Below are positions 6,345-50,495 of a stretch of DNA of 64,000 bases, one piece after another. Positions within the stretch are counted from its first letter, which is position 1; each line of letters begins with the position of its first letter. The notes beneath the pieces were generated by a model, which was not told the DNA's origin, did no database searches, and saw nothing but the letters and a program-made list of their open reading frames with translations. Source of the stretch: Cheiracanthium punctorium (taxonomy: Eukaryota; Arthropoda; Arachnida; Araneae; Cheiracanthiidae); NCBI GenBank assembly GCA_038373885.1, contig JAWZYV010013004.1, forward strand, positions 147,738-211,737, written 5' to 3'. Made by a program: the position numbers and the translations under genes.

Positions 6345-6882
6345 CCATGACGGCAGCACCATCGTAACATTGAGAGATGATGTGTTTTGGATCTAGTCCC
6401 AGTTTATTAAGCTCACCCAGAATTGTTGTATATGTACACACTGCAATCTGCATCCAGATAAACTTTAGTAGCAATGCTAACTAAATATTCAAATAGAATT
6501 CCTTCTTTTGCGGCACAGATGACGATAGACACATTTTTATTCCCATTCTTATCTTTTGTTCCACCACTTTGATAGTGAAGAATGGAACATCTGCTCCCTG
6601 AACTCTTCTCGCAATTTCTTCTTGAACCATTTTCACCAATATAGAAATAATTTCATTCTGCATTTCCGGAGATTTGTATGTAGCATTCTTTGGTATTCTA
6701 GTTATAATAACAGCTGGTTTGTTGTCCTTTCTAAATGTATATTCAAAAAGCTGCCTAAATAAACCTGAAGAAGAGTCATCAAATTCACCATATTCCTTAT
6801 CCCCTTGCAGTGGCATTCCATCAGTAACAAGGAATTTCACTATGTCCAACAGTGAAGAGATGTAATAACGGTAACCTAGCAA
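6345..6882 (-). pseudogene. hAT-A transposase, N-terminal/central part (ZMYM1-like), broken
   Basis: The minus-strand frame 6882-6481 contains LLDIVKFLVTDGMPLQGD, then ATYKSPEMQNEII, in the order found in ZMYM1-like/DUF4371 hAT transposases. The next open block holds HIISQCYDGAAVMARA, the conserved region around a catalytic Asp. A stop and frameshift near 6475-6481 separate the blocks. The frame is cut at 6344 by the hAT-B insertion and resumes at 1945. The upstream TTF-type zinc-finger domain that normally begins such proteins was not seen between 6882 and 7093, so the gene is truncated at the start as well. Confidence 0.75.
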
Positions 6883-7214
6883 CCAGTTAGCAAGTAACTT
6901 CAGCGTGACAATTAACGGTTATCACAATGTATTTCGAGACACACCTGATTTCGAACAACCAAAACAGTATTTATTTATGTTCCAATTCAGATAGACCATG
7001 ATACAGCCGCTTGTATAGCCCAGAAGCAGGGTGGGCACAGAATTTAGCAGGGTGGGCACGGCCCTCGTAGGCCCACCCGTAGCTACGGGCCTGAATACAT
7101 ATCATTTACCTTTTACAGACCAATGTTACCAATTGGGAACATCAAATTAAAAATTTATTGAAAAATTAAATTTTAACAATATTTGCTTAAAAAATTAGCA
7201 GATATAGTTAAAAG

Positions 7215-7490
7215 ATTACTTGAATTTTTAGAATAGAAGTTGCATTCTGTCATTAGCGGGGAAAATGCAATAAATTATAAAAATATCTATTTTTATAAAT
7301 TTTTACAGAGCTATATTGACACCCCCTTTCAAAACTTAATTTATATCTTACTTAAATTTAAAAATAATTTTTCATGAACTCTTACTATATATATTTGACT
7401 TATTATTTAAACTACCCAACACTACATTCCGTTTTTGAAACCAATGTAATACTATAGTCAAAAATGACCCATGCCCCCAATTTCGAATAC
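7215..7490 (+). repeat. AT-rich dispersed repeat, copy 1
   Basis: Matches 17874-18335 in the same orientation (shared words include ACTTGAATTTTT, AATAGAAGTTGC, ACAGAGCTAT and AAATGACCCATGC). The second copy carries a SINE piece and a partial internal duplication. No coding potential was seen. Confidence 0.55.
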
Positions 7491-7648
7491 AGTGAAAATT
7501 GTATACAATATTTCCCCCCATTTAAATGACTAGTGCACCTTAACTAACGCATTAGAAGACAAAGTATGTGGAAAAAACATTTTAAAATATGTCTGTATCT
7601 AAATTTGATTTGTAAAAGGTTAAGCCAATTTAAACGATGAAAAAAGAA

Positions 7649-8130
7649 GCTGGGAGTGGGATTCGAACCCACATATTCACGAACCTGAGAACCTCGCTTG
7701 GCGTAGTAACACGATAAATTCACCATGTATAAACATCCATTAACAATTTATTAGAATTTGAATTTTTCAACAGATACAAGTATATTCAATTTAGTTTTCT
7801 AGATTCGCGTACACACACATTCAGCTGACATATACACACATATGCGCATCAGGACGGGCCGTTTTACCGTACCAGCCTTCGGAATTTTTGTGTCTTTTCA
7901 TTAGTTTTATCTTTGGAGCGACATTCTTTACTTTTACATGCTAATTGTGTTATTGTTTTTCTAAAAGAGTTTCTATCACAAAATAATGGATATACTGAAT
8001 ACATAAAAATTAACATTTTAAACACATTATAGGTTATATAAACCAATAAAAAGATATTGTTATGCGCCTTTAGATGGAAAAGCGGTCCGTTTGTCAGAAT
8101 GATGAGCTTTCACACCGTCTACTGTGTTCT
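7649..8130 (-). repeat. Split tRNA-Ser-like module, copy A (5' half eroded)
   Basis: Read on minus, the tRNA-like 3' half lies at 7649-7672: a perfect T-arm (GTGGG, loop TTCGAAT, CCCAC) followed by TCCCAGC, the acceptor strand. The 200-bp insert follows at higher coordinates, but the 5' half expected near 7870-7890 is mostly deleted, leaving only the CCGTACCAGCC remnant. Beyond it, 7890-8130 matches the upstream flank of copies C and D (ATTAGTTTTATCTTTGGAGCG and onward), so flank and tRNA halves travel as one repeat. Confidence 0.65.
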
Positions 8131-8352
8131 ACGCCGTTTCCACACGTCCATAACGGGTCCAGAAAAAGAAATTGCTCTTAAAATTTATATTTTACAATGT
8201 AACAAATATGAATCGTATGTTCCGGCACAGCATAATTGTGACTAAAAACTTGTGTAAATTTTGTTTCTTTGAATTTGATGTATAAAACACTATAATATAC
8301 TTTTGGTAGACGCAATCATTGCTGGGAGAGGAAATCAATCCCCAATTGCGCA

Positions 8353-8585
8353 AATAAATGGACGATGAATATGATATCACTGCATTTTATTTTAAACATA
8401 GCTACAAACCTTACCTTAGAATAATTCATACACTAAAACAAATTAAACGAACAAAAATGAAACCGGGATTGGAACTCGAACCCTCAAGTACCGCGTTTAT
8501 GGACGTGAGACCCTCGCCGTAAAAGAAATGCCGCTCATTCACCAGGCTGAAGCATCCCGATGACTGATTTCATACAAGTTGGGAC
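8353..8585 (-). repeat. tRNA-like 3' half plus tail of the split module (left arm)
   Basis: On minus this reads as the 3' tRNA-like half, with GAGGGTTCGAGTTCC (B-box-like) near 8470-8490, followed by the ~100-bp tail that ends ATGATATCATATTCATCGTCC. The 5' half and insert are absent. The same truncated unit occurs inverted at 18600-18795. Confidence 0.6.
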
Positions 8586-8589
8586 CTTT

Positions 8590-8846
8590 TAGAATGAAAT
8601 AAATGGAGGGCACCCCCTACCTCGGCCTAGATCCCTCGTGACGATAATCGATCTTGATTGTCTGTTTGTGGGATTACGTCCGATCAGCTAGGCGTAGGCT
8701 CTAGACCGAGGAGTGGGGTGCCCCCGTGGGGTCTTTCTTAGGGGTCCTATCCCGAATTTACTCTAATTTCCGGAGGAAACCACGGAAAACTTCGAACGGT
8801 TAGGTCGGCGGACGCAACCTGGTTTTGAACCAGGCACCTTCCGTCT
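8590..8846 (-). repeat. SINE1 copy (tRNA-derived), minus strand
   Basis: On minus, the head reads CTGAACTGGGAGACGGAAGG then TGCCTGGTTCAAAACCAGG (B-box-like), followed by the body CCGAAC/TAACCGTTCGAAG..., CGTGGTTTCCTCCGGAAATT and GGGTGCCCCACTCC. Its first bases are duplicated on the far side of the SINE2 that interrupts it at 8859. Confidence 0.65.
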
Positions 8847-8858
8847 CCCAGTTCAGGA

Positions 8859-9090
8859 TTGATTTGTGTGAATGAGGCAACGCTACACTAGGACGATCTG
8901 CCAAGGATGTGGGGGGGGGCTTGGCATGAGGACTTTCTAAGGGGTTCTAACGCGTATTCACGTTACATCTGGAGGAAACTTACCGAAACTCCAGACCGTT
9001 AGACCGACAACCGCGCGATGGGAACCGAACCCGGGACCTTCACACTTCGGCTGTCTATCATTTTCAGTGGCATAACCACTGTGCCGAGGC
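8859..9090 (-). repeat. SINE2, complete copy with 12-bp target duplication
   Basis: Flanked by identical CCCAGTTCAGGA at 8847-8858 and 9091-9102, a classic retroposition signature. On minus it starts GCCTCGGCACAGTGGTTATG (A-box-like), has GGGTTCGGTTCC (B-box-like), a body with GTCTGGAGTTTCGGTAAG, TGTAACGTGAATACGCG and AACCCCTTAGAAAGTCC, and ends near TTGCCTCATTCACACAAATC. Length is 232 bp. It landed in the head of a SINE1 copy. Transcription by RNA polymerase III and mobilisation by a LINE partner are known for the class, not shown here. Confidence 0.8.
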
Positions 9091-9169
9091 CCCAGTTCAG
9101 GAGCGGTATGAGCTCGGATACTGGTCGGGATATCTTCCAGGTATTGGTCGGAGGAGTTATGAATTTTTC

Positions 9170-9345
9170 AATTTAAGATAGACGGCTGAAGTGTGAAGGT
9201 TCTGGGTTGGTCCCGTAGAGTGGCTGTAAATCTAATGGTCTGGAGTTTTTAAAGGTTTCTACAGATTTAATGTGAATATTCGTTAGAACCCCTTACAAAG
9301 TCCATGCGCCAAGGCACCCCCCCCCCATACTCGGCAAATCGCCCC
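9170..9345 (+). repeat. SINE2 fragment, plus strand
   Basis: Begins GACGGCTGAAGTGTGAAGGT and continues through GTCTGGAGTTT and TTCGTTAGAACCCCTTACAA to the C-rich tail (9318-9328). It lacks the A-box end. Its counterpart in the right arm lies on minus at 16735-16915. Confidence 0.55.
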
Positions 9346-9399
9346 AGCGTATCGTTTCCATAATCAAACGAAGAAAGCGACTCGAGGGTTATCTGCCTC

Positions 9400-9560
9400 T
9401 TCGGAGGAGAAATTTTTGAAGGGTTCTAAAGCGTAGTCACGTTACATCTGTAGAAAACTACCAAAAACTTCAGACTGTTACACCAACGCCACACGAAAGG
9501 CTCGAACACGGTACCTTCACACTTCAGAAATGTAGCACGTTCGATGGCTTTAACCACTTG
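9400..9560 (-). repeat. SINE2 fragment, minus strand
   Basis: On minus this reads CTGAAGTGTGAAGGTACCGT, GTTCGAGCCTTTCGTGTGGC, then AGTTTTTGGTAGTTTTCTAC and TGTAACGTGACTACGC. It corresponds to 16540-16690 in the right inverted arm. It lies tail to tail with the fragment at 9170-9345. Confidence 0.55.
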
Positions 9561-9717
9561 GCATTTTGTGGTGTCTCCATTTGTTTAAATGCTCGCAATA
9601 GGCGCCTAGAGCATTCATCAGTATGTTTTGTATTATAGCAAACCTACACGAGGGACATCTGCTTACAGGAATTGACATTCAAGTTACATCTGGAGAAAAC
9701 GGACCAAATGTTTAGAC

Positions 9718-9999
9718 CAGTGTTTCTCAACCTGTGTGCCGCGGCACACTGATGTGCCGTGAGATATAGTCTAATGTGCCGCCAGGGCTTTTGAAAAATT
9801 ATTAAAACTGCGTGGTGTCATATCAGCAATGTGACATTTTCTATTTATTATGTCCTGTCTTGTTCACTTTCAGTAAGCTATACACCAAGAAGAGCGAAAC
9901 TTTTATTTCATAGCATGGAAAACCGTTCTGCCAATTTTTGAAACAGCTGTTTGCAGCAAGACCCATGCAAAAACAGGCTGAACAGGATATACATTGAAT

Positions 10000-10034
<35 letters not shown>

Positions 10035-10176
10035 GGTAAAAAAAATTCTTTAAAGTTATTTATATTCATCAATTTTTTGTATCACATAACCTTTGCAATT
10101 TTTATGTTCAGGCGTGCCGGAAATATTTCTAGATATTTTCAATGTGCCGTCAGCCATTAAAGGTTGAGAAACACTG
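9718..10176. mobile_element. hAT (Charlie-like) MITE, 459 bp
   Basis: Begins CAGTGTTTCTCAACC and ends GGTTGAGAAACACTG, perfect 15-bp inverted ends, with identical 8-bp target duplications GTTTAGAC (9710-9717 and 10177-10184). The subterminal GTGCCGCGGCAC palindrome resembles Charlie-type hAT elements of many animals. The interior has an ATT microsatellite and no transposase. It is present only in the left arm of the inverted duplication. Confidence 0.88.
10001..10035. repeat. (ATT)n microsatellite
   Basis: About eleven uninterrupted ATT units inside the hAT MITE at 9718-10176. Confidence 0.9.
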
Positions 10177-10186
10177 GTTTAGACCG

Positions 10187-10245
10187 TTAGATCGACAGCC
10201 GCGCAGTAGGCCCGTGCGCCAGACCTTCACACTTCAGGCGTCTAT
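10187..10245 (-). repeat. SINE2 head fragment, minus strand
   Basis: On minus this reads GCCTGAAGTGTGAAGGTCTG and GCGCGGCTGTCGATCTAACG. It is the left-arm counterpart of 16215-16290. The MITE at 9718 split this SINE from its body at 9655-9709. Confidence 0.5.
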
Positions 10246-10777
10246 AATAATATTCTACGAATCCAACTATTTTGTTATCATAAAAATATAACATATTAAT
10301 TGTAGAAATTAATGAGCAGGTTTTAATTTATGAAAACAGTAACACAGCAATGATCATGAAAGTTAAATTGCAATTTTAATTCTTGCTTTCTCATAATAAA
10401 CATCAATAAGGAGGATTTTTTTATGACATTGCAAGCAGCATTATAAAACAAATAATCTACATAACATATTTAAACATGCGTGGTAAATCAGTAAAAGTAT
10501 AACTTAGGCCAAATATACGCAGTTATTTACCTGTATAAATGGAGTGTATTAATTCAGATATACAGATTTCGACGATTCACGCCTTCGGGTAAGAGCTTGG
10601 AGTTGTAAATGGCTTTACTGTACTTCATTATGACGGTTTTAGTAAAAATATTTCACTAACGGGTAAATCCGTTGCCCCCAAGGCATTTCTCCCTTTGGCA
10701 GATAACCCATAGCGTTCTTTGCCTAAACAAAACCAACGACATTTTTAATAGATTCTCAAATAGAGGTAAGGGAACAT

Positions 10778-11165
10778 GCCGGGATGGCCGAATGGTTAAG
10801 GCACCTGACTTGAAGGCCGGTACGGTAACACGGAACATAGAGCTGCGCTTGCATGTGTATGAATGTAGTATGTGTGTTTGTAGACTGAATATGGTGTGAA
10901 TGTTAATGTAGGAAATTAAATAAATGTACTTGTTGAAAGCTTCAAATTCTATGAAACTGTTAATGATGGATTTCGCCTGGTGAATTACCTGTGTTACTAA
11001 TCCGAGCGAGGGTCTCAGGTCCATGTGTATGGTACTTGATGGTTCGAATCCCACTCCCGGCTTCTTTTTTGTTCTGTTAGTAATACGTATTATTTTAAGG
11101 TGGAGTTTCTTCCTATGTTTTATATAATGTACTATGATATCATATTTATCGTTCATAAAGTTAAG
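10778..11165 (+). repeat. Split tRNA-Ser-like module, copy B (both halves present)
   Basis: 5' half 10778-10833: acceptor strand GCCGGGA, A-box TGGCCGAATGGTTAAGG, anticodon-loop-like CTTGAAG (TGA, serine), then GGTAACACGG. 3' half 10988-11061: CCTGTGTTAC, GAGGGTCTCAGG, T-loop TTCGAAT and TCCCGGC, which pairs perfectly with GCCGGGA. The halves are separated by about 155 bp and joined by the inverted repeat GTAACACGG/CCGTGTTAC with one change. A 100-bp tail to 11165 ends near GATATCATATTTATCGTTCAT. It resembles a tRNA-Ser with a huge insert in the variable arm, but stem mismatches mean a functional tRNA is unlikely. It could be a composite SINE. Confidence 0.7.
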
Positions 11166-11424
11166 CAGTTAGGGATCCCTTCTCCCAACAGTTATTACTT
11201 GTAACCGAAAATATTGTTTTTTCGTTGAAAGCAAACATAAAATTTCAACCACTTTTAGTTTGTTCGTTTTGTGTGTTTTTTGTGAGAGTTTATAGAATAT
11301 ATAATTTCAATGTGATAGGCCATGATCGCTATTGTTCCTCGTACATTTTTATTCTAAAGACAGTCGTTAACAATTACAGAATATTACCCAAGTTTTCACC
11401 ATCACGTTTTTAGTTTCAAAGGAG

Positions 11425-11665
11425 CTGTGTCAGCTCCACCACGGTACAGTGTCTAAGTCACTGAAAATGGCTGCAGTGTGAAGGTTACGTTTTCGGGTCC
11501 CATCCCGCGGCTGTCGGTCAAATGGTCTGAAGTTTTGACCGGTTTTCTCCAGATATAACGTGAATACGCGTTAGAACCCCTTAGAATGCCCTCCTAGCAA
11601 GACCCCCCACCCATCCTATGCAGATCGCCAGATCGCCCCAGTGTAGCATTGATCAAACCATCACA
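11425..11665 (+). repeat. SINE2 copy, plus strand
   Basis: Contains CACGGTACAGTGTCTAAGTC, TGCAGTGTGAAGGTTACG, TTCGGGTCCCATCCCGCGGC, GTCTGAAGTTTTGACC, GTGAATACGCGTTAGAACCC and the C-rich tail with GATCGCCCCAGTGTAGC. The A-box region is diverged. No clear target duplication was read. Confidence 0.6.
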
Positions 11666-11734
11666 CCAGCTGCGCCTGAACATAGGATTAACATTTGCAA
11701 TATTTTAATGTAAGAATTTTATAGATTTTGTTTT

Positions 11735-11890
11735 CTGGACCAGCCGTGGCCGAGTAGTTGAAACACTGACCATGGTAATCGACTGAAATGAGAAGGTTCA
11801 GTGTTCCGGTTTACGCCTCGGCTGTCGATCTAATAAATTTTGGTCTATTTTCTCCAGACGCCTATCTAGCCTTATGGTCCTATCTAGCAT
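11735..11890 (+). repeat. SINE2-like head, plus strand
   Basis: CCAGCCGTGGCCGAGTAGTT (A-box-like) and GGTTCAGTGTTCCGG (B-box-like) precede CGGCTGTCGATCTAATAAAT and TTTTCTCCAGACG, after which similarity stops. Truncated copy. Confidence 0.5.
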
Positions 11891-11965
11891 CTCAGAGCCA
11901 TGTCTGAAATGTGAAGGTCCCGAGTTCCGGCCTACCATTTACTAACGACATTTTCATTAGACGGA

Positions 11966-12045
11966 GTTAAATGTGACGAGGTGGACGAATGGTTAAGGCG
12001 CTAGACTTGAAGACCAGAAAGGTAACACGGAACGTTACGGTTGCG
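11966..12045 (+). repeat. Split tRNA-Ser-like module, isolated 5' half
   Basis: GGTGGACGAATGGTTAAGGC, GACTTGAAGACCAG and GGTAACACGG follow the order of the 5' half at 10778-10833. The 3' half is missing nearby; a 3'-half-like fragment begins at 12690. Confidence 0.5.
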
Positions 12046-12224
12046 CATGCTTGTGTGCGTGACATAATGATAATAAACAAGGGAAATCATAAATGTATGC
12101 AATGTTGTAATGTATTCTAATCTTTAAAAGCATTCTCTAACAAAAGCAGGGTACTTTTGAAAGTGAACCAAAAGCTGAAATTTTGCTCTTGACCTTGGAC
12201 GATTTCATTTTCTATCACCGATGT

Positions 12225-12440
12225 AATATCACAGGTTGGCCGAAGTGTGAAGGTCTCGGGTTCGGGTCCCATTGCGCGGCTGTCGATCTAAAGATCTGGA
12301 GTTTGTAGGTTTTCTTCGCATGTAACGGGTGAATAAGCGTTAGAACCCTTTAGAAAGTTCTCCTACCAAGGCACGCCCATCCTTGGCGGATCGTCCTACC
12401 TTAGCGTTGCCGCTATCATACAAACGCAGTAATATCACAG
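12225..12440 (+). repeat. SINE2 copy, plus strand
   Basis: GGCCGAAGTGTGAAGGTCTC, GGGTTCGGGTCCCATTGCGC, CGGCTGTCGATCTAAAGATC, TGTAACGGGTGAATAAGCGT, TTAGAACCCTTTAGAAAGTT and GGCGGATCGTCCTACCTTAG. The short repeats AATATCACAGGTT (12226-12238 and about 12431-12443) flank it and may be the target duplication. Confidence 0.65.
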
Positions 12441-12689
12441 GTTAAAAGCGACAACACCTTTTGCCAACTGAATGGAATGCACATTCATTTCATAAATGGA
12501 ATTTATTATGTTTACTTTACTTAATAAATATTTCTTTAACCATAAATGCGATCAGTTATTTTTGATTTACTTAATAAACTTCAGCATGGGTATAAAATAT
12601 TAGTTTCCTGTTTTGCCTTAAGATTTATTGTTCTACATAAAGAAAAATCGGATATAGTGAACGAAATTTGCCCGTCCCCAGAGAATAAC

Positions 12690-12830
12690 CGGAATTGACG
12701 GTATATGTATCTGTTGAAAGCTCCAAATTCTATGAAATTGTTAAGTTGGGCGATGCTACTGGAGAATTAGCCACGTTACCATGCTAAGCGAGGGTCTCAG
12801 GTCTGTGCCTGAGAGCTGTGCCTGAACATA
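12690..12830 (+). repeat. Split tRNA module, insert and 3'-half fragment
   Basis: GTTGAAAGCTCCAAATTCTA, CCACGTTACCATGCTAAGCG and GAGGGTCTCAGGTCTGTG match the insert and the start of the 3' half of copy B. The T-arm and acceptor strand are missing. Confidence 0.5.
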
Positions 12831-13009
12831 CGATTCATATTTGTTACATTTTAAAGCAAGAATTTTATGATTCATTTCTTTTTCAGGGGCCACAATGGAC
12901 GAATGGAAAAGGCGAAGAGCATAGTAGACGGCTGAAGTGTGTTGTTATTGTTGTGAACATGCATGTCGGATTTGTGTGCTTGGCTCGAAGTCCACTTATA
13001 AATCCTCGA

Positions 13010-13180
13010 CAAAAGGACAACACAAGGGGGGGTGCCCGTCTTGGCGGTCTTTCTAAGGGGTCCTAACCCGTAGTTACGCTATTTCGGAGAAAACCACGGA
13101 AAACTCCGAACGGTTATCTCGACGGACGCGCGATGGGACACGAACACGGGACCTTCACACTTCGCCCATCTACTATTTCC
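13010..13180 (-). repeat. SINE1/SINE2 chimaera, minus strand
   Basis: On minus, a SINE2-type head (GAAGTGTGAAGGTCCCGTG, TTCGTGTCCCATCGCGCG) is joined to a SINE1-type body (AACCGTTCGGAGTTTTCCGT, CTACGGGTTAGGACCCCTTA, GAAAGACCGCC). This shows that the two families share interchangeable bodies. Confidence 0.55.
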
Positions 13181-13194
13181 AGGGAGCTGAAGTG

Positions 13195-13655
13195 TGAAAG
13201 CGCATCGTTCTGGCAAACGGCGCGATTGTCCATCTAATGGTACATAGCAATATTTTTTTATTGGTTTACACAATCTATGATTGGTTTAAAACATGAATTT
13301 TTATGTATTCAGTGTATCCATTATGATAGAAAGTCTTTGAGAAAAACAATAACCCGATTAGGATATGAAAGAAAAGAATGTCGCTCTGTAGATAAAACTA
13401 ATGAAAACCGAACTATTCTTACGCTCAAGGTGTGCCGGGACGGCCGAATGGTTAAGGCACCTGACTTGAAGGCCGGAACAGTAACACGGCCCCGTGCAGT
13501 TGTGTGTGTGTATGTGAATGTAGAAGACTAAAATGAATATACTTGTAGCTGTTGCAAACTTGAAATTCTATTAAATTGTGAACGGAATGTATTTGCCGTG
13601 TTACCTCACCGAGCGAGGTTTTCAGGTCTGTGTATACGTGCGTGAGATTAAAGAG
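13195..13655 (+). repeat. Split tRNA-Ser-like module, copy D with upstream flank
   Basis: Upstream flank 13195-13433 matches 15920-16130 and 7890-8130 inverted. 5' half 13434-13489: GCCGGGA, CGGCCGAATGGTTAAGGC, GACTTGAAGG and GTAACACGG. About 106 bp later CCGTGTTAC (13596-13604) closes the inverted repeat, followed by GAGCGAGGTTTTCAGG. The T-arm and acceptor strand are missing, so the copy is 3'-truncated. The open frame that crosses the module looks accidental. Confidence 0.65.
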
Positions 13656-14017
13656 TGAAGAAAATACCTTTTGTATGAAAAAAATTCTTCGTGGGGGTTG
13701 GGGGAGGCTTCCCCCCGTGGTTACGCCACTGATAGAGATGATAGGTCTATCACATTGCAGTTATGTATCTTGATTGGACAATGTAAAGACACAGTTTTTC
13801 GAGATGTTTGGCTATTTTATGGCCTTCATCTCAGTTTTTTCCAAGTTCAAGATCATCTCCCTTTACCACCAACTACAAATTACAACACATGGACAGACAA
13901 GTTTACGTACACGCCAAAAGCCGGCCAGCTTGGCCCAAACTCGATCTCGATGAACTCTCGCAAACACACTTAACGAACAAAATAAAAGGTGTTTGAAATT
14001 TTATATGTTTGAATTTA

Positions 14018-15504
14018 CCCAGACAGCACATAAGCTTAAATCAAGCTTGACATTTCTTTGAATTTGACGCATTAATGCAAGCTTGACAGTTCAACTCATT
14101 CTAAGCTGGCAGCAAGCTTGCAGGAGTCAAGTTGAATTGTCAAGCTTAAATACAGCTTGATTTAAGCTTGGCAATTGATACTCGGTTGATTTTTCCTTTT
14201 TAAAGGAGCGTTGATGGCGCCATCTGTGAAAGAGAATGGACATTAATTGTCTAGCGTCCGCAAATTTGCTGAAAGTTCGTAAAAGATGTGTATTTTATTA
14301 CCAGTGCAATATTACCGGCAAAGCAAACGGGGCAACTACCCAGGGCCTACAGACTTTAGGGCCCAAAAATCTTACATCTTACACTTTTGTAGTTTTAAAA
14401 TAAAATTACAAAGGATAAAAAAAAAATTCAGAAGTTAAATAATTTTTTTAATTATAAAGTATGAACAATGAAAATAATTCAAATTTACATTTGTATAAAT
14501 TAATTTAAACTTATTTTTAATTCTTCGAAATGCTCTATATCGATATAGCATACCAATATGTAGGAAAATAACTAACCACATTTGTAAAGAGAATTTTTAG
14601 CGTTAAAAAATAGCAAAATTTTTCAATTATTTGTTATTATAAGAAATATTTACAAAAATGACTAAAGTGTTTGTATTCCATACATGTTAGCAACTGTGAT
14701 ATAGATATAGCATTTCGAAGTAACGTTTAACTATCTGTTTCTTAACGTTTAACTATCTGTTTCTTAACACAAGATTTGTGTTAAGTAAGTAAACCCATTC
14801 TGTATTTCCAAATATGGAAATTCTTCAAAATAAAATACAATTATAGTACGAATTTGATTTCAAAATCAGTCGTTTGTCTCGATTTTGGCCAGCAGTATTG
14901 CTCACGAGTGTTGCGAAAGTTTTAAAACGTGTACTGCTGTTAAGTTTATATTATGTTTATTTTCCTATTAGTAGAATCGCTAAATCACACATAACATTAT
15001 TTTAATTTTGATGCATCCCATGGAAAAATAAAAAAAACAAATAACATATCGCCCACTTATCAATCTGGCCAGAAAACCGCTTGATAATTCACTTCAAACT
15101 TTAGTCATAGCTCCATCGAAGCTTGGTAGCTGAATGGATAACGCGCTCGCCTACGAACCGAGAGGTCCCGGGTTCTATTCTAGCCACGGACACTCGATGG
15201 AAACAGATTAAATTAAATTGAAATTTCAGCGTAGAGGGGAAAATGCGTGGCAAAGTTATATATTTGGGGCGAGTTCGGCGCCCCGTGTATTTAGGAATTT
15301 TTTTGGGGGGGAAATTTTTTTAAGTTTGAAATGTCAAGCTTGAAATCTCAAGCTTAATGCAAGCTGGGCAAGTGTAAACTAGAACACTTGATTCAAGCTT
15401 CCATCAAGCTTACACGCTTGGAATTTTCAAGCTTAATTCAAGCTTATTGACTTGATAAATCAAGCTTGCTGCAAGTTTGATGCAAGTTTGCTGTGCTGTC
15501 TGGG
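14018..15504 (+). mobile_element. AAGCTT-rich DNA element, copy 1 (1.49 kb)
   Basis: Starts CCCAGACAGCACA and ends TGTGCTGTCTGGG, perfect 13-bp inverted ends. The outer ~170 bp at each end hold repeated TCAAGCTTGA-like palindromes, at least six AAGCTT at the left and seven at the right. An inverted second copy lies at 30103-31567. The interior is AT-rich, carries a GGGCCC-flanked block near 14300-14370 and an arginine-tRNA-like segment (15121-15190), and has no recognisable transposase. The flanks TACC and TAAT do not give a clear duplication here; copy 2 suggests 4 bp. The superfamily is unknown to me. Confidence 0.75.
15121..15190 (+). other. tRNA-Arg-like segment inside the AAGCTT-rich element
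   Basis: TAGCTGAATGGATAACGCG matches an arginine-tRNA D-arm/A-box, CTACGAA is an ACG anticodon-type loop with partial stem CTCG/CGAG, and GGTCCCGGGTTCTATTC resembles the variable region and T-arm/B-box. The acceptor strands do not pair well, so a working tRNA is unlikely. It may give the element a polymerase III promoter (inference). The same segment is present inverted in copy 2. Confidence 0.6.
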
Positions 15505-15574
15505 TAATGAAAGAAACGACAATACTTTTGTATTAATTTAATAACTGTTGCTAGAAGCAATCCCTAATAGCTCA

Positions 15575-16150
15575 ACTTTATGGAAGATGAATATGGTATC
15601 ACTATATTTTATTTAAATATACCAGCAAACTTTACTCTAAAATATATTATTAAGCCAATTTAAATGAAAAAAGAAGTTGGGAGTAGGGTTCAAACTCACA
15701 GTTGTACATGAACGGACCAGAGAACCTCTCTCGGTGATGTAACATGGGAAATACATTCCGTTAACAATTTAATAGAATTTGAAGTTTTCAACAAATACAA
15801 GTATATTCATTTTAGCCGCCTACATTCACATACACACACACAACTGCACGGACCCATGTTACTGTTCCGGTCTTCAAGTCAGGTGCCTTAATTATTCGGC
15901 CGTCCCGGCACACCTTGAGTGCAAGAATTGTTCCGTTTTCATTAGTTTTATCTTTTGAGCGACATTCTTTTATTTCATATCCTAATCGGGTTATTGTTTT
16001 TCCCAAAGAATTTCTATCACAATGGATACACTAAATACATAAAAATTGTTGTTTAAAACACATCATAGATTGTGCAAACTAATAAAAAAATATTGTTATA
16101 TACCGTTAGATGGACAAGCGCGTCGTTTGCCTAAACGATGAGCTTTCACC
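15575..16150 (-). repeat. Split tRNA-Ser-like module, copy C with flank
   Basis: On minus, the 5' half starts at 15909 (GCCGGGA, CGGCCGAATAATTAAGGC, GACTTGAAGACCGG, AGTAACATGG) and the 3' half ends at 15676 with the T-arm-like GTTTGAACCCTAC and TCCCAAC. The insert is about 110 bp and is bounded by GTAACATGG/CCATGTTAC. The tail 15575-15675 and the flank 15920-16150 match those of the other copies. The acceptor stem now has mismatches, as expected of decay. Confidence 0.65.
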
Positions 16151-16214
16151 CTTCAGCGCACTGTACGTTTCTATATGTTTTATTCTTATGATAACAACAT
16201 ATTTGGATTCGTAG

Positions 16215-16410
16215 AATATTATTATAGATGGCTGAAGTGTGAAGGTCTGGCGCCCGGGTCTACTGCGTGGCTTTCGATCTAACGGTCTAAACTTTTGGTA
16301 CGTTTTCTACAGATGTAACTTGAATACTCGGTGTAACTCCAGAAGTAACTTGAATACTCGGTGTAACTCCAGAAGTAACTTGAATACTCGCTGTACTCGC
16401 ACTCCAAGTA
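16215..16410 (+). repeat. SINE2 head with tandem 26-bp repeats
   Basis: GGCTGAAGTGTGAAGGTCTG and GTTTTCTACAGATGTAAC are followed by about three units of a 26-bp repeat containing AGTAACTTGAATACTCG (16313-16395). The left-arm counterpart has a single unit, so the expansion is specific to this arm. Confidence 0.6.
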
Positions 16411-16539
16411 AGTCAACTCCCGTAGGCAGATGTCCCTCGTTCAGGTTTGCTATAATACAAAACATACTGATGAATGCTCTAGGCGTCTATAGCGAGCATT
16501 TAAAAAAATGGGGACGCCACACAATTCCAAGTGGTTAAA

Positions 16540-16690
16540 GACATCGAACGTGGTAAATGGCTGAAGTGTGAAGGTACCGTGTTCGAGCCTTTCGCGTGGC
16601 GTTAGTGTAACAGTCCGAAGTTTTTGATGGTTTTCTACAGATGTAACGTGAATTCGCTTTAGTACCCTTCAAAATTTCTCCTCCGAAGCG
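16540..16690 (+). repeat. SINE2 fragment, plus strand
   Basis: GGCTGAAGTGTGAAGGTACC, GTTCGAGCCTTTCGCGTGGC, GTTTTCTACAGATGTAACG and TTAGTACCCTTCAAAATTTC. Inverted counterpart of 9400-9560. Confidence 0.55.
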
Positions 16691-16734
16691 GCAGATAACC
16701 CTCGAGACTCTTTTTTTGTTTGATTATGGCAACG

Positions 16735-16915
16735 ATACGCTGGGGCGATCTGCCAAGTATGGGGGTGCATTGGTAGAAGGACTTTCCCAGGGGTTCTAAT
16801 GCATATTCACGTTAAACCTGGAGAAAGCCTACCAAAACTCCAGACCATTAGATCTACAGCCAAGCTATGGGACCAACTCAGAACCTTCACACTTCAGCCG
16901 TCTATCGCAAATTGA
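16735..16915 (-). repeat. SINE2 fragment, minus strand
   Basis: On minus: ACGGCTGAAGTGTGAAGGTT, GGTCCCATAGCTTGGCTGTA, GGTCTGGAGTTTTGGTAGGC and CACGT/TGAATATGCATTAGAACC. Counterpart of 9170-9345. Confidence 0.55.
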
Positions 16916-16964
16916 AAAAATCATAACTCCTCCAACCAAGGCAATCCACATCCCTGGAAGATAG

Positions 16965-17190
16965 CCCGGCCAATATCCGAACTGATAGCGCTCCTGAACT
17001 GGGAGACGGAAGGTGCCTGGTTCAAAACCAGGTCGGTTCCGCCGACTTAACCGTTCGGAGTTTTCCGTGGTTCCTCCGAAACTTCACTTTAATACGGGTT
17101 AGGATCCCTTAGAAAGTCCCCCACGTACAGCAATCCCCCTCCCTAGATCCCTTGCGCAGATAATTGGTCATAACACCACATTACATTACA
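16965..17190 (+). repeat. SINE1 copy, plus strand
   Basis: CTGAACTGGGAGACGGAAGG, GCCTGGTTCAAAACCAGGTC, AACCGTTCGGAGTTTTCCGT, GTTAGGATCCCTTAGAAAGT and the tail CCCTAGATCCCTTGCGCAG. The head is truncated or diverged before 16985. Confidence 0.65.
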
Positions 17191-17443
17191 TTTCAAACAA
17201 AAACGAACTGCTCTGATCTACGCATCCTGTTTAATGTTTTCTATCTTCTTGTACAACCTGTTTTTCCATTGTACATTGTTAAATAAAATATCTACTGCAC
17301 TGACATTAAAAAATAATGGATATGGCTTAGAGAATGGATAATGTAGATCTTCGAATTCAGTTATTTTTTCATCATGATTGCATTTAAATGCATTTAAGAA
17401 GCTTTGAAGTTTGGAAATTTTTGCTGCATAAGATATTTAAAAG

Positions 17444-17500
<57 letters not shown>
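17444..17500. repeat. (TA)n microsatellite
   Basis: About 28 uninterrupted TA units. The surrounding 17205-17580 is AT-rich, with no gene or repeat that I recognise. Confidence 0.95.
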
Positions 17501-17503
<3 letters not shown>

Positions 17504-17659
17504 TTAAAGTAATTAAACACTTTACTAAACATTTAAAATACCTGTAATAAATCAATTCTATTAGCTCTTAATCTAAACAAACGTAAGGATCCCTTAGAAA
17601 GTCCTCCGACCAAGGCATTTCATATCCTAAGCAGATTAGCCCATGCGTAACCTTGCCAT

Positions 17660-17880
17660 AACACAAAGAGCCCCACCAGTGGCACAGCGCATAGAGCTCT
17701 GAACTGGGAGACGGTAGGTGCCTCGTTCGAAACCATGCCGCGTACGCCGGACTAACCGTTCGGAGTTTCCGTGGTTTCCTCCGAAACTTAGCGTAAATAC
17801 GGGTTAGGACTCCTTAGGACCCCTTCCACACGGAGGGCACCCCACCCATCGGCCTAGATCCCACGTGTACCACTTGAATT
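17660..17880 (+). repeat. SINE1 copy, plus strand
   Basis: CCCCACCAGTGGCACAGCGC (A-box region), CTGAACTGGGAGACGGTAGG, TGCCTCGTTCGAAACCATG, CCGTTCGGAGTTTCCGTGG, CGTAAATACGGGTTAGGACT and GGAGGGCACCCCACCC. One of the more complete copies. Confidence 0.7.
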
Positions 17881-18335
17881 TTTGAAATAGAAGTTGCTTT
17901 TTTATCATTAGTAGGAAACTGGACAAAGAAGTATGAAAATAGCCATTTTCATAAATTTGAACAGAGCTATCTTGATGCACAAACACCCCGTAATCTTGAA
18001 TCATATATTTATTGTACCTAAATTTTAAAAATGAACATTTTATTAATTCTTAATATTTCATTTATTATTTAAACTAGCCATCAATAGGTCGCGTCCGTCG
18101 ACCTAACCGTTCGAAGTTTTCCGTGGTTTCCTCCGAAAATTAGCGTGAATTCGGGTATCTTGATACACCTCCACTCCTTAATCGTAATTCATATATTTAT
18201 TTTAGCGAAATTTTAAAAAAATAAATCTTTTATTAATTCTTAATATTTCATTTATTATTTAAACTAGCCATCAATACATTCTGTTTTTGAAATTAATGTA
18301 AAAGTATAGTATGAAATGACCCATGCTCCCTAACA
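17874..18335 (+). repeat. AT-rich dispersed repeat, copy 2, split by SINE1 fragment
   Basis: Same repeat as 7215-7490. A SINE1 body fragment (about 18085-18155) sits in the middle, and the segment from CTTGAT to ACTAGCCATCAATA is present on both sides of it, so part of the host repeat was duplicated or rearranged around the SINE. Confidence 0.55.
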
Positions 18336-18339
18336 CATC

Positions 18340-18560
18340 GCTTACGCCGACCTAACCGTTCGGAGTTTCTCGTGGTTTCCTCCGAAAATTAGCGTTAAAT
18401 GCGGATGAGGACCCCTTAGAAAGACCCCCACGGACGGCACCCCACCACTCGGCCTAGAGCCACGCGTAGCTCATCGTCCGTAATCCCACAAATAAAGAAT
18501 CAAGACCGTTTATCTGCACGAGGGATCTAGGCCGAGGTGAGGGGTGCCCTCCATTTGGGT
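18340..18560 (+). repeat. SINE1 body fragment followed by an inverted tail piece
   Basis: GCCGACCTAACCGTTCGGAG, GGTTTCCTCCGAAAATTAGC, GACCCCTTAGAAAGACCCCC and GGCACCCCACCACTCGGCC, then after about 60 bp the same tail inverted (GCCGAGGTGAGGGGTGCCC, 18531-18549). The left arm has the same arrangement at 8590-8760. Confidence 0.55.
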
Positions 18561-18599
18561 CTTTCTAAACGGTCCCAACTTGTATGAAATCAGTCAAGG

Positions 18600-18795
18600 G
18601 GATGCTTTAACCTGGTGAATGAACGGCATTTCTTTCACGTCCCACGGTCTCACGTCCATAAACGTGGTACTTGAGGGTTCGAGTTCCACTCCCGGCTTCA
18701 TTTTTGTTCGTTTAACTTGTTTTCGTGTATGCATTATTTTCAGTTTGTAGCTATGTTTAAAATAAAATACAGTGATATCATATTCATCGTCCATT
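18600..18795 (+). repeat. tRNA-like 3' half plus tail of the split module (right arm)
   Basis: GAGGGTTCGAGTTCCACTCC then CGGCTTC gives a T-arm/B-box and acceptor strand; the tail reads to AGTGATATCATATTCATCGT. This is the inverted counterpart of 8353-8585. Confidence 0.6.
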
Positions 18796-18800
18796 TATTT

Positions 18801-19788
18801 GTTTTCGTTTTTCGCGCCGATCCGGACCCTATTCATCATAGGGCGCCCTCTATAGGCTTTCAAATTTAGATGCCAAAATTGTGGCTTTCGACCACGGAAG
18901 CTTCCCCTCCACAGAATATACCTCTGTGTACTAAACACATGACTAACACCAAGGGGAAAATGAGGGATTAACAGTGAAGCTAGTACACCAATCAGAGCGC
19001 TTATTCCAGGCGTACGTTTGTTCAGTCGGTGATTTAGCAGCTTGTTTGGTCACGTGATTTTAGCAGCTTGTTTTGGTCACCTGTTTAGTATCCCCGCCTC
19101 CAAATTCCATCTGAATCCACCTTACTAAATTTAGCAACTAAACAATAGGTTTAGTAGCTACTAAATCTACCTGAATAAGGGCCTATATTCCCAATAGCTT
19201 TTTTTACATTTTGGGAACAAATTGGGAAACAAAAACAGAAATTAGGGACTGTCCTCGAAAATTGAGGACGATTATTAAAGTGAATTTTTTAATTTTATTA
19301 ATTAAGAATGATCTAATTTTCTACACAATAAGCAGTGGGGTTTTCAAAAAATAGTATGCCGTTTTTCCAGTAGCTTCAGCTTTGGCCCTTTCTAAAGGGG
19401 GGAGGGATGTAGAGGCCCTTGACATTTGCAAAATTCTATTAAACCTGGCAAAATTTGATATCTATATGGCAAACTTGGTAAGAAAATGTTAACAAAAACT
19501 ATAATTTACTTCCTGTATCTGGTACTCTTGGCAAAATTACACAAACCCAGTTTGAAAAAGGAAAAAGCTGGTAATTTAGTTGATAAAAAAATAAATAAGT
19601 TGGTAAAAATCGATATTTGACTTGGCAGTTTATCTACCTCTGCCTCCCCCCTAAAAAAAGTCTTCGCAGTGGCTCGGATAGAGCTATCATACAGTGACGA
19701 TGGACGATGTCTTTTCACAACTTTTTTTTTTTTAAATAGTTTTAACGAATGAAAATTAGCGTTTGTTTTAACATATAAATACTGTTAA
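18801..19788. other. No gene recognised; short duplications
   Basis: The segment TTTAGCAGCTTGTTTGGTCAC is nearly duplicated at 19030-19085. At 19246-19270 the hairpin GTCCTCGAAAATTGAGGAC resembles the terminal motif of the element at 20213. No open frame of interest was found. Confidence 0.4.
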
Positions 19789-30102: not shown

Positions 30103-31567
30103 CAGACAGCACAGCAAACTTGCAGCAAGCTTGATTTATCAAGTCAATAAGCTTGAATTAAGCTTGAAAATTCCAGGCGTGTAAGCTTGATGCAAGCTTG
30201 AATCAAGTGTTCTAGTTTACACTTGCCCAGCTTGCATTAAGCTTGACACATCAAGCTTGACATTTCAAGCTTTAAAAAATTTCCAAAAAATTTTTTTCTA
30301 AATACACGGGGCGCCCGCTGGCGAACGCGCCCCACATACTTTATTTTTCCGCGCATTTTCCCCCTCTATGCTGTAATTTTAAGTTATTTTAATCTGTTTC
30401 CATCGAGTGTCCGTGGCTAGAATAGAACCCGGGACCTTTCGATTCGTAGCCGAGCGCGTTATCCATTCAGCCACCGGAGCCTTGTGCAACTATGACTAAA
30501 GTTTGAAGTGAATTATTAAGCGGTTTTCTGGACAGATTGATTAGAGGGCGATATGTTATTTATTTTTCCATGGGATGCATCAAAATTAAAATAATTTTAC
30601 GTGTGATTTAGAGACTCTATAATAGGGAAATAAACATAATATAAACTTAAGAGCAACACATGTTTTAAAACTTTTGCAACACTCATGAGCAATACTGCCG
30701 CTGGCCAAAATCGAGACAAACGACTGATTTTGAAATCAATTTCGTAGTATAATTGTATTTTTTTTTGAAGAATTTTCATATTTGGAAATATAGAATGGGT
30801 TTACTTATTTAACACAAATTTTGTGTTAAGTAATCTGAAATCAAAGAAACAGATAGTTAAACGTTACTTCGAAATGCTATATCACAGTTGCTAACATAAC
30901 ATGTATTGAATACAAACACTTTAGTCATTTTTGTAAATATTTCTTATAATAACAAATAATTGAAAAATTTTGCTATTTTTTAACGCTAAAAATTCTCTTT
31001 ACAAATGTGGTTAGTTATTTTCCTACATATTGGTATGCTATATCGATATAGAGCATTTCGAAGAATTAAAAATAAGTTTAAATTAATTTATACAAATGTA
31101 AATTTGAATTATTTTCATTGTTCATACTTTATAATTAAAAAAATTATTTAACTTCTGAATTTTTTTTTATCCTTTGTAATTTTATTTTAAAACTACAAAA
31201 GTGTAAGATGTAAGATTTTTGGGCCCTAAAATCTGTAGGCCCTGGGCAGTTGCCCCGTTTGCCTTGCCGGTAATATGGCACTGGTAATAAAATAAACACT
31301 TCTTTTACGAACTTTCAGGAAATTTGAGGACGCTAGACAATTAATGTCCATTCTCTTTCACAGATGGCGCCATCAATTCCTTTAAAAAGGAAAAATCAGG
31401 CGTGTAGCAATTGCCAAGCTTAAATCAAGCTGTATTTAAGCTTGACAATTCTACTTGACTCCTGCAAGCTTGCTGCCAGCTTAGAATGAGTTGAACTGTC
31501 AAGCTTGCATTAATGCGTCAAATTCAAAGAAATGTCAAGCTTGATTTAAGCTTATGTGCTGTCTGGG
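30103..31567 (-). mobile_element. AAGCTT-rich DNA element, copy 2, inserted in Gypsy-1 3' LTR
   Basis: Reverse-complement match of 14018-15504, with the same AAGCTT-rich ends. It begins CAGACAGCACAG and ends TGTGCTGTCTGGG. The 5' LTR of Gypsy-1 gives the empty site, and ACCG is present on both sides (30099-30102 and 31568-31571), suggesting a 4-bp target duplication. The interior includes the arginine-tRNA-like segment on minus and the GGGCCC block. No transposase was recognised. Confidence 0.8.
30411..30481 (-). other. tRNA-Arg-like segment, copy 2
   Basis: On minus: GGTGGCTGAATGGATAACGC, GCTCGGCTACGAATCGAAAG and GTCCCGGGTTCTATTC. It has the same ACG-type loop as copy 1 and keeps A- and B-box-like words in both copies. 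Confidence 0.6.
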
Positions 31568-38737: not shown

Positions 38738-39800
38738 GCTGCAGCGCCATCTTGCGCCCAGTTATAGAAAAACAGATAGCGTAAAAATATTCTCCATGTT
38801 TATATATCCATGTGTACCAATTGTCATCAAACTTGGTTGACCGGTATTTTCACAGAAAACGCTTAAACGAAATAGAATTCGGCGTTCTGCAGCACCACCT
38901 AGCAGCAAGTTACTGCAAAATGGAAAGTGTAAAAATATTCTGCTTCTTCAAATATTCGTGTGTACCAATTTTCATCAAAATTAGTTGAACGGTACTTCCA
39001 TAGGAAGCGGTCGAACGGAATAGAATTCGATGTACTGCAGCGCAATCTCGCAGCAAGTCGTGGCAAAACAGACAGTGCAAAAATATTCTCCGTGTTCAAA
39101 TATCCATATGTACCAATTTTCGTCAAAATAAGTTAAACGGTACTTGCATAGGAAGCGGTCGAACTGAATAGAATTCGATGTACTGCAGCGACGTCTAGCG
39201 GCAAGTCATGGCAAAATGGATAGTGTAAAAATATTCTCCGTGTCCAAATATCCATACGTGCCAATTTTCATAAAAATCGGTTGAATGGTATTTTCATAGC
39301 ACGCGGTCGAACGGAATAGAAATCGACGTTCTGCAGCGTCATCTAGCGTCAAGTTACAGCAAAATGGATAAAGAAAAAATATTCTACGTCTTCAAATATC
39401 CGTCCGCCCAATTCTCATCAAAATCAGTTGAACGGTACTTGCATAGCAAGCGGTCGAACGGAATAGAATTCGACGTTCTGCAGCGACACCTAGCGGCAAG
39501 CTAGAGGAAAATAAATAGCATAAAAACCTTCTCCGTGTTCAAATATCCATAAATAGCAATTTTCATGAGAATTGGTTGAATGGTATTTTCATACCAAGCG
39601 GTCCAACGGAATAGAATTCGACCCTCTGCAGCGCCACCTAGCGGCAAGTTATATCAAAATGAATTGCGTAAAAATATTCTCTGTGTTCAAATATTCATAC
39701 GTACCAATTTTCGTCAAGATAGGTCAAACGGTATTTTCATAATAAGCGGTTGAATAGAATTCGACGTTCTGTAGCGCCACCTAGCGGCGAGCTAAAGTAA
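38738..39800. repeat. Tandem array of ~148-bp units with CTCF-like motif
   Basis: The word CTGCAGCGCCACCTAGCGGC, with variants, begins at about 38738, 38889, 39035, 39183, 39332, 39478, 39627 and 39768, spacing 141-151 bp. Each unit also has ATATTCTCCGTGTTCAAATA, TGTACCAATTTTCATCAAAA and GCGGTCGAACGGAATAGAA. More diverged units extend left to about 37740. On minus the motif reads GCCGCTAGGTGGCGC, close to the CTCF core consensus. Binding is not shown. Confidence 0.75.
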
Positions 39801-39949
39801 AATGGATATCATAAAACTTTTCTCTGTGACAAAAGACTTATGTGTACCAAATTTCATGGTGGCCGGTCCAACGGTTTTGGAGTTTTTTTCAACGTCATAC
39901 ATACATACACACACACATACCCACAAACTTTCATTTATATATATATAGA

Positions 39950-42401: not shown

Positions 42402-43235
42402 TCAAACTGAGTTCAGTATAGGGAGCTTGGAAAGTTTTGTAATTGGACGTGTTAGTTCACCAGAAGTTGTTTTAAGTCTCACAACGCGAACTCTATTGTC
42501 CGATCCAGGGAAAACCTCAAGCACACGACCAAGCTTCCATTTAGTTGGAGGTAAATTATCCTCTTTAATCAAACATAAATCTTCAACTGCAATATCCACT
42601 TGAGGAGTCTTCCACTTAGTTCTTTGCTGAAGTTGAGACAAATAATCAGATGACCAACGCTTCCAAAATCCTTGAAGCATTTGCTGAACGAGCTTCCATC
42701 GTCTTAATATTGGTATTTTCTCTTCGGTCAAATTCTGTTCGGGTACAGATGTCAAAGGGGCTCCAATGATGAAGTGCCCGAGTGTAAGTGCACTCAAATC
42801 CGACGGATCAGCTGTTACCGGTCTTAGAGGTCGGGAATTTAAACAAGCTTCAACCTGATGAAGAAGCGTCAGGAACTCCTCGTAGGTAAGAACTTGTGCA
42901 CCCTCCACCCTATTAAGGTGGTGCTTCATCGACTTTACGGCAGCTTCCCCGAGTCCACCGTGATGTGGAGCAGAGGGAGGATTGAAACTCCATTTTATAC
43001 CCTCATCAGCGAGATAGTCGTGAAATTTTTTTCCTTCTCGAATGATGAGATCAAGTTTCTTTAACTCTTTGCTAGCGCCCACAAAATTAGTTCCACAATC
43101 GCTAAAGATGTCTTGTGGTTTCCCTCTTCTCGCTGCGAATCTTCTTAATGATGCAATAAAAGCATCTGATGTCAAATCGCCTACCATTTCAAGATGGACT
43201 GCTTTCGTAGTAAAACATACATATAAGCAAACATA
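42402..43235 (-). pseudogene. pol: BEL-1 integrase catalytic core and C-terminal domain
   Basis: Same frame as the preceding pol block, separated by a TGA near 43234. It contains the integrase core with a metal-binding Asp in DIFSDCGTNFVG and a Glu in GGLGEAAVKSMKHH, then the DUF5641-type C-terminal domain of BEL/Pao integrases (VEDLCLIKEDNLPPTKWKLG). Only the one stop separates it from the upstream frame, so the damage here is small. The first Asp of the triad lies just upstream (VGVDFAGPF). Confidence 0.88.
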
Positions 43236-44762: not shown

Positions 44763-44779
44763 TTCATTTTTTTTTCTCC

Positions 44780-50262: not shown

Positions 50263-50495
50263 TTGTGTTTTGTTGTATTGTGGATTACCGCCGATTAACA
50301 CGTGGGCTCTAGGCCGAGTGATAAGGTGCTCTCCGTGGGGGTCTTTCTAAGGGGTCCTAACCTGTATTTACGCTAAGTTCCAGAGGAAACCATGGAAAAT
50401 TCCGAACGGTTAAGTCGGCGGACGTGACCTGGTTTTGATCAGGCATCTTCCGTCTCCCAGCGCAGCGTGTTATGCGCTTGGCCACTGGTGGGGCA
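50263..50495 (-). repeat. SINE1 inside Helitron-like element 2, with target duplication
   Basis: Flanked by TCGACAAAGATGG (50250-50262) and CTCGACAAAGATCG (50496-50509). On minus it starts GCCCCACCAGTGGCCAAGCG, with CTGGGAGACGGAAGATGCC, TAACCGTTCGGAA and GTTAGGACCCCTTAGAAAGA, and ends in ACAACAAAACACAA. The same insertion, with the same duplication, is in Helitron-like element 3, so it preceded the spread of the element. Confidence 0.8.

Follow-up and report, generated by a model that had tools for sequence, protein, structure and literature searches.

The tRNA-like feature at position 10778 of the window (the whole 64-kb stretch of Cheiracanthium punctorium DNA analysed here) is probably an old and decayed member of a clustered, class-II, tRNA-Leu-like multigene family that carries a long intron at position 37/38 and has grown by tandem duplication at the DNA level. 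On the best reading of the sequences, the family is mostly pseudogenic. Its members fall into two groups, family A, with which the window copy is counted, and family B, which has the same tRNA halves and a different insert. The original prediction had offered several readings of the feature, among them an insert-bearing tRNA gene, and this one has held up: the intron lies at 37/38, the acceptor, D and anticodon stems are complete, and 18 array copies in other parts of the genome have the same layout of two halves plus insert.

A tRNA body with an insert in the anticodon loop

In the feature (10778–11062), the 5' half comprises the acceptor strand GCCGGGA, a D arm (GCC/GGC) and a loop containing TGA; the T arm and the acceptor strand TCCCGGC belong to the 3' half. 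Exact acceptor pairing had been predicted, and it is found at 7/7 positions. The distance between the halves, however, is 199 nt rather than the 106–155 bp first given, and the insert lies in the anticodon loop after A37 and not at the site of the variable arm (CCATGTGTATGG), which comes after it. Because the anticodon stem closes beyond the insert (CCTGA pairs with TCAGG, 5/5, in the ARAGORN structure) and the variable arm comes later, the insert is an intron at 37/38, the canonical tRNA intron site according to the available part of PMC4090602. Were the insert in the variable arm, CCTGA would have to close a stem with GCCGG on the near side of it, and by inspection this forms 3/5 pairs in the window copy, against 5/5 across the insert; the 11975 fragment keeps the same three near-side positions (CTAGA/ACCAG), one of them through a C-G to T-A change. 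The complementary blocks GTAACACGG and C(C/T)GTGTTAC (CCGTGTTAC, CTGTGTTAC), once thought to bound the insert, form an intronic stem 10 nt from the 5' splice site. The T arm of the window copy has two mismatches. We take TGGCCGAATGG to be an A box-like element of a Pol III promoter, and GGTTCGAATCC is presumably B box-like.

The 10778 feature is real and more than a chance match. ARAGORN without introns found no tRNA gene in the 64-kb window. With introns of 0–3000 nt it returned two genes there, the 10778 gene and an implausible tRNA-Val with a 1596-nt intron, and with introns of up to 400 nt the 10778 gene alone; 40 first-order Markov windows of 64 kb gave 1 match at that setting. The fixed-37/38 intron option yielded no gene in the window at the default score, though the free-position structure prints the intron at 37-38. 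(Lowered score thresholds were not used because of the flood of matches, 155 at 80%.) Rfam had no tRNA match in the window at the gathering score, nor over 7000–19000 at E≤5, where the low-threshold matches belonged to five families and were all at chance level. The A-type loci L003 and L021 were likewise not recognised as tRNA by Rfam. Family B, with its insert in the anticodon loop, exceeded the Rfam tRNA threshold in 8 matches (best 42.8 bits), all of them in the 2 B-holding loci among the 4 loci searched.

Folding of the RNA had been proposed as a check, and single-sequence minimum-energy folds give no cloverleaf (z -1.55 and -0.15). As in eukaryotic intron-containing nuclear tRNA genes, the cloverleaf is restored in ARAGORN once the insert is removed, and the intron, its position left free, falls at 37/38. 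In alignment A2 (8 rows from the family together with Leu and Ser tRNAs of the same genome), the exon stems with the insert removed are 95% paired, against 25–49% when slid.

Table 1. Features of the window copy, its flanks and the other copies in the window
Feature	Position	Strand	Basis
Exon 1: 5' strands of acceptor and anticodon stems, D arm, anticodon loop as far as A37 (TGA at 34-36)	10778..10814	+	ARAGORN with introns; 35/37 identical to array unit
A box-like TGGCCGAATGG	10785..10795	+	sequence; also in most copies shown of both families
199-nt intron, canonical position 37/38	10815..11013	+	ARAGORN; array-A intron only between tRNA halves, 20/20 places
Intron stem, 5' strand GTAACACG	10825..10832	+	pairs with 10990-10997; two pairs with double-sided change in family
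Intron stem, 3' strand TGTGTTAC	10990..10997	+	pairs with 10825-10832; family alignment
Exon 2: base 38, 3' strands of anticodon and acceptor stems, variable arm, T arm with two mismatches, U73	11014..11062	+	ARAGORN; 43/47 aligned positions identical to array unit
B box-like GGTTCGAATCC	11041..11051	+	sequence
T6 run, Pol III terminator-like, directly behind tRNA end	11065..11070	+	sequence; also in array-A copies shown
Upstream flank, 75% homologous to spacer of 1788-bp tandem unit	10250..10744	+	alignment to array unit
Downstream flank common to 15909 and 8463 copies; the second tRNA-like stretch in array unit A matches 10979-11296 as well	11063..11296	+	
Second copy, with exon 1, the whole intron and the beginning of exon 2; homology stops in variable arm	13434..13635	+	
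Third copy, full length, decayed (acceptor and anticodon-stem mismatches)	15676..15909	-	
Fourth copy, retaining intron and exon 2, with a degenerate exon 1	7649..7880	-	
Fragment: exon 1 and start of intron	11975..12056	+	
Fragment with the 3' part of the intron and the beginning of exon 2	12693..12807	+	
Fragment: intron end and exon 2; downstream tail runs on to about 8240	8463..8547	-	
Fragment with the 3' part of the intron and exon 2, mirroring the 8463 fragment in the inverted arms	18576..18696	+	

The further copies and parts that had been predicted in the window were recovered (Table 1), some of them only as fragments. An upstream flank of ~240–250 bp, also predicted, is common to the copies at 13434, 15909 and 7880 and differs from that of 10778. 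The 10778 and 11975 copies have in common a 21-nt upstream stretch, identical at 18/21 positions (0/500 shuffles as high).

Two long imperfect inverted arms, 8351–10296 and 16173–18801 (pieces 86–93% identical, interrupted), enclose most of the tRNA-like copies. The left arm is interrupted at 9718–10176 by what appears by eye to be a MITE-like insertion with inverted ends CAGTGTTTCTCAACC / GGTTGAGAAACACTG. A ~1.49-kb element with inverted CCCAGACAGC ends (14018–15503) splits the downstream tail of the 15909 copy; it has a second copy at 30112–31567 (91.5%) and contains a tRNA-like stretch, seen by eye, near 15119–15190. A dispersed SINE-like repeat, with box-like cores by eye, occurs at 8726–8856, 50278–50460, 60347–60476 and other places, and a second repeat family at 8863–9067, 11439–11629, 12237–12424 and 16689–16906. 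Further off, a BEL/Pao retrotransposon broken into several frames (DUF1759, Peptidase_A17 and DUF5641 in Pfam) occupies 42402–46357 on the minus strand, and tandem repeats lie at 38739–39808 (period 148 bp), 46652–47148 (75 bp) and 50863–51894 (304/147 bp). BEL/Pao elements being metazoan, the Pfam domains mark the window as animal DNA. A protein search with the ORF at 6481–6918 gave no match.

Tandem arrays and the mode of copying

The 2.53-Gb assembly of 15171 contigs, in which the window lies at C7957:147738-211737, was searched with the full 10778 query, which matched at least 48 places on 7 contigs (best 40 of 49 candidates), and with a family B query, which matched at least 49 places (best 40 of 44 candidates) and added C14204, together with C362, where just the 3' half matched, and C13945, where just a piece of the insert did. 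Together, the two queries matched on ten of the 15171 contigs, among the matches listed. Family A forms 13 tandem copies on C9847, with a period near 1788 bp (~1.79 kb), and 5 copies of the same unit on C2493. Family B is found on C5197 and C13181, at spacings of 1934–1948 bp (one pair is 596 bp apart), and also on C10609. Since copies lie near a contig end on C9847, C2493, C5197, C13181, C10609, C14917, C14204 and C362, the arrays may represent one or a few clusters broken by the assembly. In the array copies both halves still surround the insert, as the split-tRNA reading requires, and do not stand in unrelated contexts; nor is the acceptor pairing lost, being 7/7 in the array-A unit (one G-U) as in the window copy.

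Introns measure 169–199 nt in 20 family A copies, 210 nt in one more, and 74–80 nt in family B. (For these lengths, and for the anticodon and C32–G counts below, copies were chosen by hand: 20 of family A, namely 18 array copies, C13181:28779 and the window copy, and 11 of family B. Left out of the A count despite having both halves were C13181:24505, C13181:899, C14917:6003 and the window copies at 13434 and 15909, which are rows of alignment A1, and left out of the B count were C5197:10664, C10609:112688 and C10609:114653; C14204 and fragments with one half or a large insert also lie outside.) The length quoted for most eukaryotic tRNA genes in the part of PMC4090602 available is 6–133 nt, a descriptive range and not a definition; the B introns fall within it, and the A introns, as animal tRNA-type introns of 169–210 nt, lie above it.

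How did the family multiply? The regular spacing and the common spacers point to growth by tandem duplication, in units of ~1.79 and ~1.94 kb, and the copies in the window have been further scrambled and inverted. Spacer positions 1281–1755 of unit A align with window positions 10250–10744 at 75%, and further stretches reach 11296. Because the flanks of the window copy match the array spacer, copying is read as having occurred at the DNA level, by tandem duplication and not by retroposition. A joined-exon query gave no spliced retrocopy among at least 60 matches (best 40 of 44 candidates); what it found were family copies, matched exon by exon, and six contiguous matches at 78–79% that resemble ordinary tRNAs. 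Local multiplication of tRNA genes and pseudogenes is also described for tRNA gene clusters and tandem repeats in the accessible portion of PMC2888827, from which the present family differs in its unit of 1.8–1.9 kb, its one main long-intron gene and its differing anticodons.

A tRNA-derived SINE, with a tRNA head, its insert and a tail all spread by retroposition, is very unlikely. It would account for the internal A and B boxes, for the downstream tail of up to about 235 bp common to three window copies, and for the way in which the 10778 flank departs from that of the 13434 group right from the tRNA 5' end (by eye, the sole consistent element end); the region is also crowded with other SINE-like repeats. 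However, a T5–T6 run stands behind the tRNA end, so that a SINE tail would not be transcribed, and ~500 bp of upstream flank are common to the window copy and the array unit. The matches listed are largely tandem and confined to ten of 15171 contigs, the rest of the window has no match to a tRNA half or the insert at E≤0.01, and no spliced copy was found among the joined-exon matches listed. Instead of dispersed copies with a tRNA head, a tail and independent flanks, there are clustered tandem copies with common flanks, and the earlier suggestion of a mobile element or composite SINE finds no support.

It is also very improbable that the copies are Helenus-type TRIMs, short LTR retrotransposons with tRNA-like sequence in their LTRs. 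Such an element has a PBS and a PPT between two near-identical LTRs and, in animals, a 4-bp TSD. Helenus families, as far as the available text of PMC10886601 describes them, also carry tRNA-like sequence with mismatched isotypes and have multiplied in genomes, and array unit A does have two tRNA-like stretches. These stretches, however, are only 66% alike, unlike LTR pairs, and no near-identical LTR pair was seen; the tandem unit of 1.8–1.9 kb compares with 1263 bp for the longest Helenus reported in that text, and the copies are clustered and tandem, with the long intron kept. In unit A of locus L003, a hAT-like piece ending in TTGGGGACCACTG lies ~330–720 past the tRNA start, between the main tRNA-like gene and the second, degenerate one, and this ending is also found ahead of a degenerate copy at C13181:28062.

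The insert alone might also be a mobile element that had landed in a tRNA gene, and the short inverted blocks GTAACACGG/CCGTGTTAC could be taken as its ends. This, too, we regard as highly improbable. A 161-bp query from the A intron gave 20 candidates, all scored, and 20/20 lie between tRNA halves (the window's own, more diverged intron is absent from these matches, so distant copies can be missed). The A and B inserts do not align, yet they occupy the same 37/38 site, and the blocks belong to a stem inside the intron rather than to its borders. The restriction to ten of 15171 contigs among the matches listed, and of the A intron to places between the halves, likewise leaves a new kind of element exploiting tRNA folding without support.

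Conservation of the tRNA body and the splice sites

Which parts of these tandemly duplicated, intron-bearing tRNA genes have been kept? Between the window copy and the array, the exons are identical at 78/84 positions, and the intron and flanks at 545/735 (Fisher p = 4e-5). Units A and B align to each other solely in the two tRNA exons (BLAST E≤1e-3). Since the exons are closer than the intron and flanks, and are all that A and B have in common by alignment, the tRNA body appears to have been constrained for a long time. At present, variability within array A is no lower in exon 1 than elsewhere in the unit, and somewhat lower in exon 2: pi is 0.0275 in exon 1, 0.0099 in exon 2, 0.0250 in the intron, 0.0204 in the 5' flank and 0.0184 in the spacer (16 units, from 16 of the 18 array copies, the last copy on each contig being cut by the contig end).

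At its two ends, adjoining the splice sites, the intron is conserved to about the same degree as the exons. One could imagine the arrays as intron-RNA factories, in which the tRNA body and splice geometry were kept in order to release the long intron as a stable circular intronic RNA, the anticodon being free to drift since decoding was not the product. We consider this unlikely: identity to the array is 128/176 in the intron of the window copy and 382/507 in its upstream flank. Taken as a whole, the intron has been preserved no more closely than the flank, which is evidence against a conserved intron product.

The splice sites have the geometry of eukaryotic intron-containing nuclear tRNA genes, in which a proximal C–G pair accompanies a 3-nt bulge at the 3' splice site. 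In 20/20 A and 10/11 B copies, a G stands opposite C32, with three bases between this G and the anticodon stem, the array copies being near-identical and not independent; in alignment A1 (ten distinct A-type rows, chosen by hand), the pair is C–G in 7 rows and U–G in 1, while one row is unpaired here and in one the pair is missing. The six nucleotides from the proximal pair to the exon end read C-T-T-N-N-A in all 31 counted copies. In Drosophila pre-tRNAs, according to the available part of PMC6614914, all 16 intronic tRNAs have a C–G proximal pair, the 3-nt bulge is invariant, and the distance between the pair and the end of the exon is 6 nt. All 5 anticodon-stem pairs are kept in only 5/11 B copies, and at least one pair is lost in 6/11.

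Taken as a whole, the structure has 91% of its cells paired in the ten A-type rows, against 29–46% when slid. Covariation in the A-type alignment was not above chance for the plain cloverleaf plus intron stem, the double changes being reached in 70/500 shuffles; with two short helices near the splice sites added, helices that were picked after seeing the alignment, they were reached in 8/500. We also considered whether the anticodon loop pairs with CTTCAAATTC, a conserved mid-intron sequence; by inspection, this helix has 6 pairs in the window copy and is broken in array A.

An intact copy may be transcribed and spliced as follows. Pol III would start from the internal A and B boxes and stop at the T run, giving a pre-tRNA of about 170–290 nt. 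The tRNA body would fold, with the intron stem beside a short anticodon–intron helix and three bulged nucleotides at the 3' splice site, and the intron would then be excised by the tRNA splicing endonuclease.

Isotype, parentage and decoding

A functional tRNA-Ser(UGA) has a constant UGA anticodon and G73. In the present family, the anticodons by position are TGT (18) and TGA (2) in the 20 A copies, and TGC (7), TAC (2), TGA (1) and TCC (1) in the 11 B copies, and the discriminator is U73 in family A and the window copy and G73 in family B. It is improbable that the family provides a functional tRNA-Ser(UGA), or a functional set of intron-bearing isoacceptors, for translation. The TGA anticodon of the window copy, the pairing of stems in the A and B exons and the G73 of family B would all fit such a role, but the anticodon varies between copies, U73 is out of place, the B copies shown have a T-stem mismatch, and the genome has ordinary intronless tRNA-Ser(UGA) genes (2 read, L054 and L055; 40 query matches). 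No single aminoacyl identity appears to fit families A and B, and, since the anticodons differ, most copies probably no longer decode.

The proposed tRNA-Ser identity rested on the TGA triplet, and the exons appear nearer to tRNA-Leu than to tRNA-Ser. Array A exons score 38.0 against Leu(UAA), 34.5 against Leu(CAA), 28.0 against Ser(GCT) and 24.0 against Ser(UGA); family B scores 36.0, 27.0 and 18.5 against Leu(UAA), Leu(CAA) and Ser(UGA); and the window copy scores 32.5 against Leu(CAA), 31.0 against Leu(UAA), 28.0 against Ser(GCT) and 24.0 against Ser(UGA). (The Leu and Ser(GCT) references were human sequences, and Ser(UGA) was the genome's own.) Because tRNA-Leu(CAA) already has an intron, a parent of this type is favoured, with Leu(UAA) as the alternative.

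The kinds of gene involved are known ones, intron-bearing tRNA genes and tandem tRNA arrays, with a family A intron longer than quoted, and not a new mobile element. No description of this family was found in the literature searched, which is not proof of absence. Long introns have been kept through tandem amplification, with the sequence geometry of the splice sites intact and the anticodons differing, and the family may offer a natural test of what is selected in a pre-tRNA once decoding is relaxed. It is also a warning for tRNA annotation: ARAGORN is blind here without introns, and with introns it assigns different isotypes to near-identical copies.

Animal intron-containing tRNA-Leu(CAA) resembles the family in its class-II body and in having its intron directly 3' of the anticodon; that intron, however, is about 30 nt long, against 74–80 or 169–199 nt (one 210) in the family. 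The genome's own Leu(CAA) genes have the same T arm as array A (GTGGGTTCGAATCCCAC) and also stand in tandem arrays. The search for intron-bearing Leu(CAA)-like genes gave at least 23 full-length matches of 114–117 bp (best 40 of 91 candidates). The one gene read (L058), called Met by ARAGORN through a shifted splice site, aligns with the exons of the window copy in 30/39 and 34/49 columns and has, by inspection, the C–G proximal pair with a 3-nt bulge; it differs in its CAA anticodon and A73, against the differing anticodons and U73 or G73 of the family. Six Leu(CAA)-like genes lie in tandem on C7444, four of their five spacings being 1091 bp. On C3937, nine matches to the Leu 5' half recur about every 426 bp, with two more further off.
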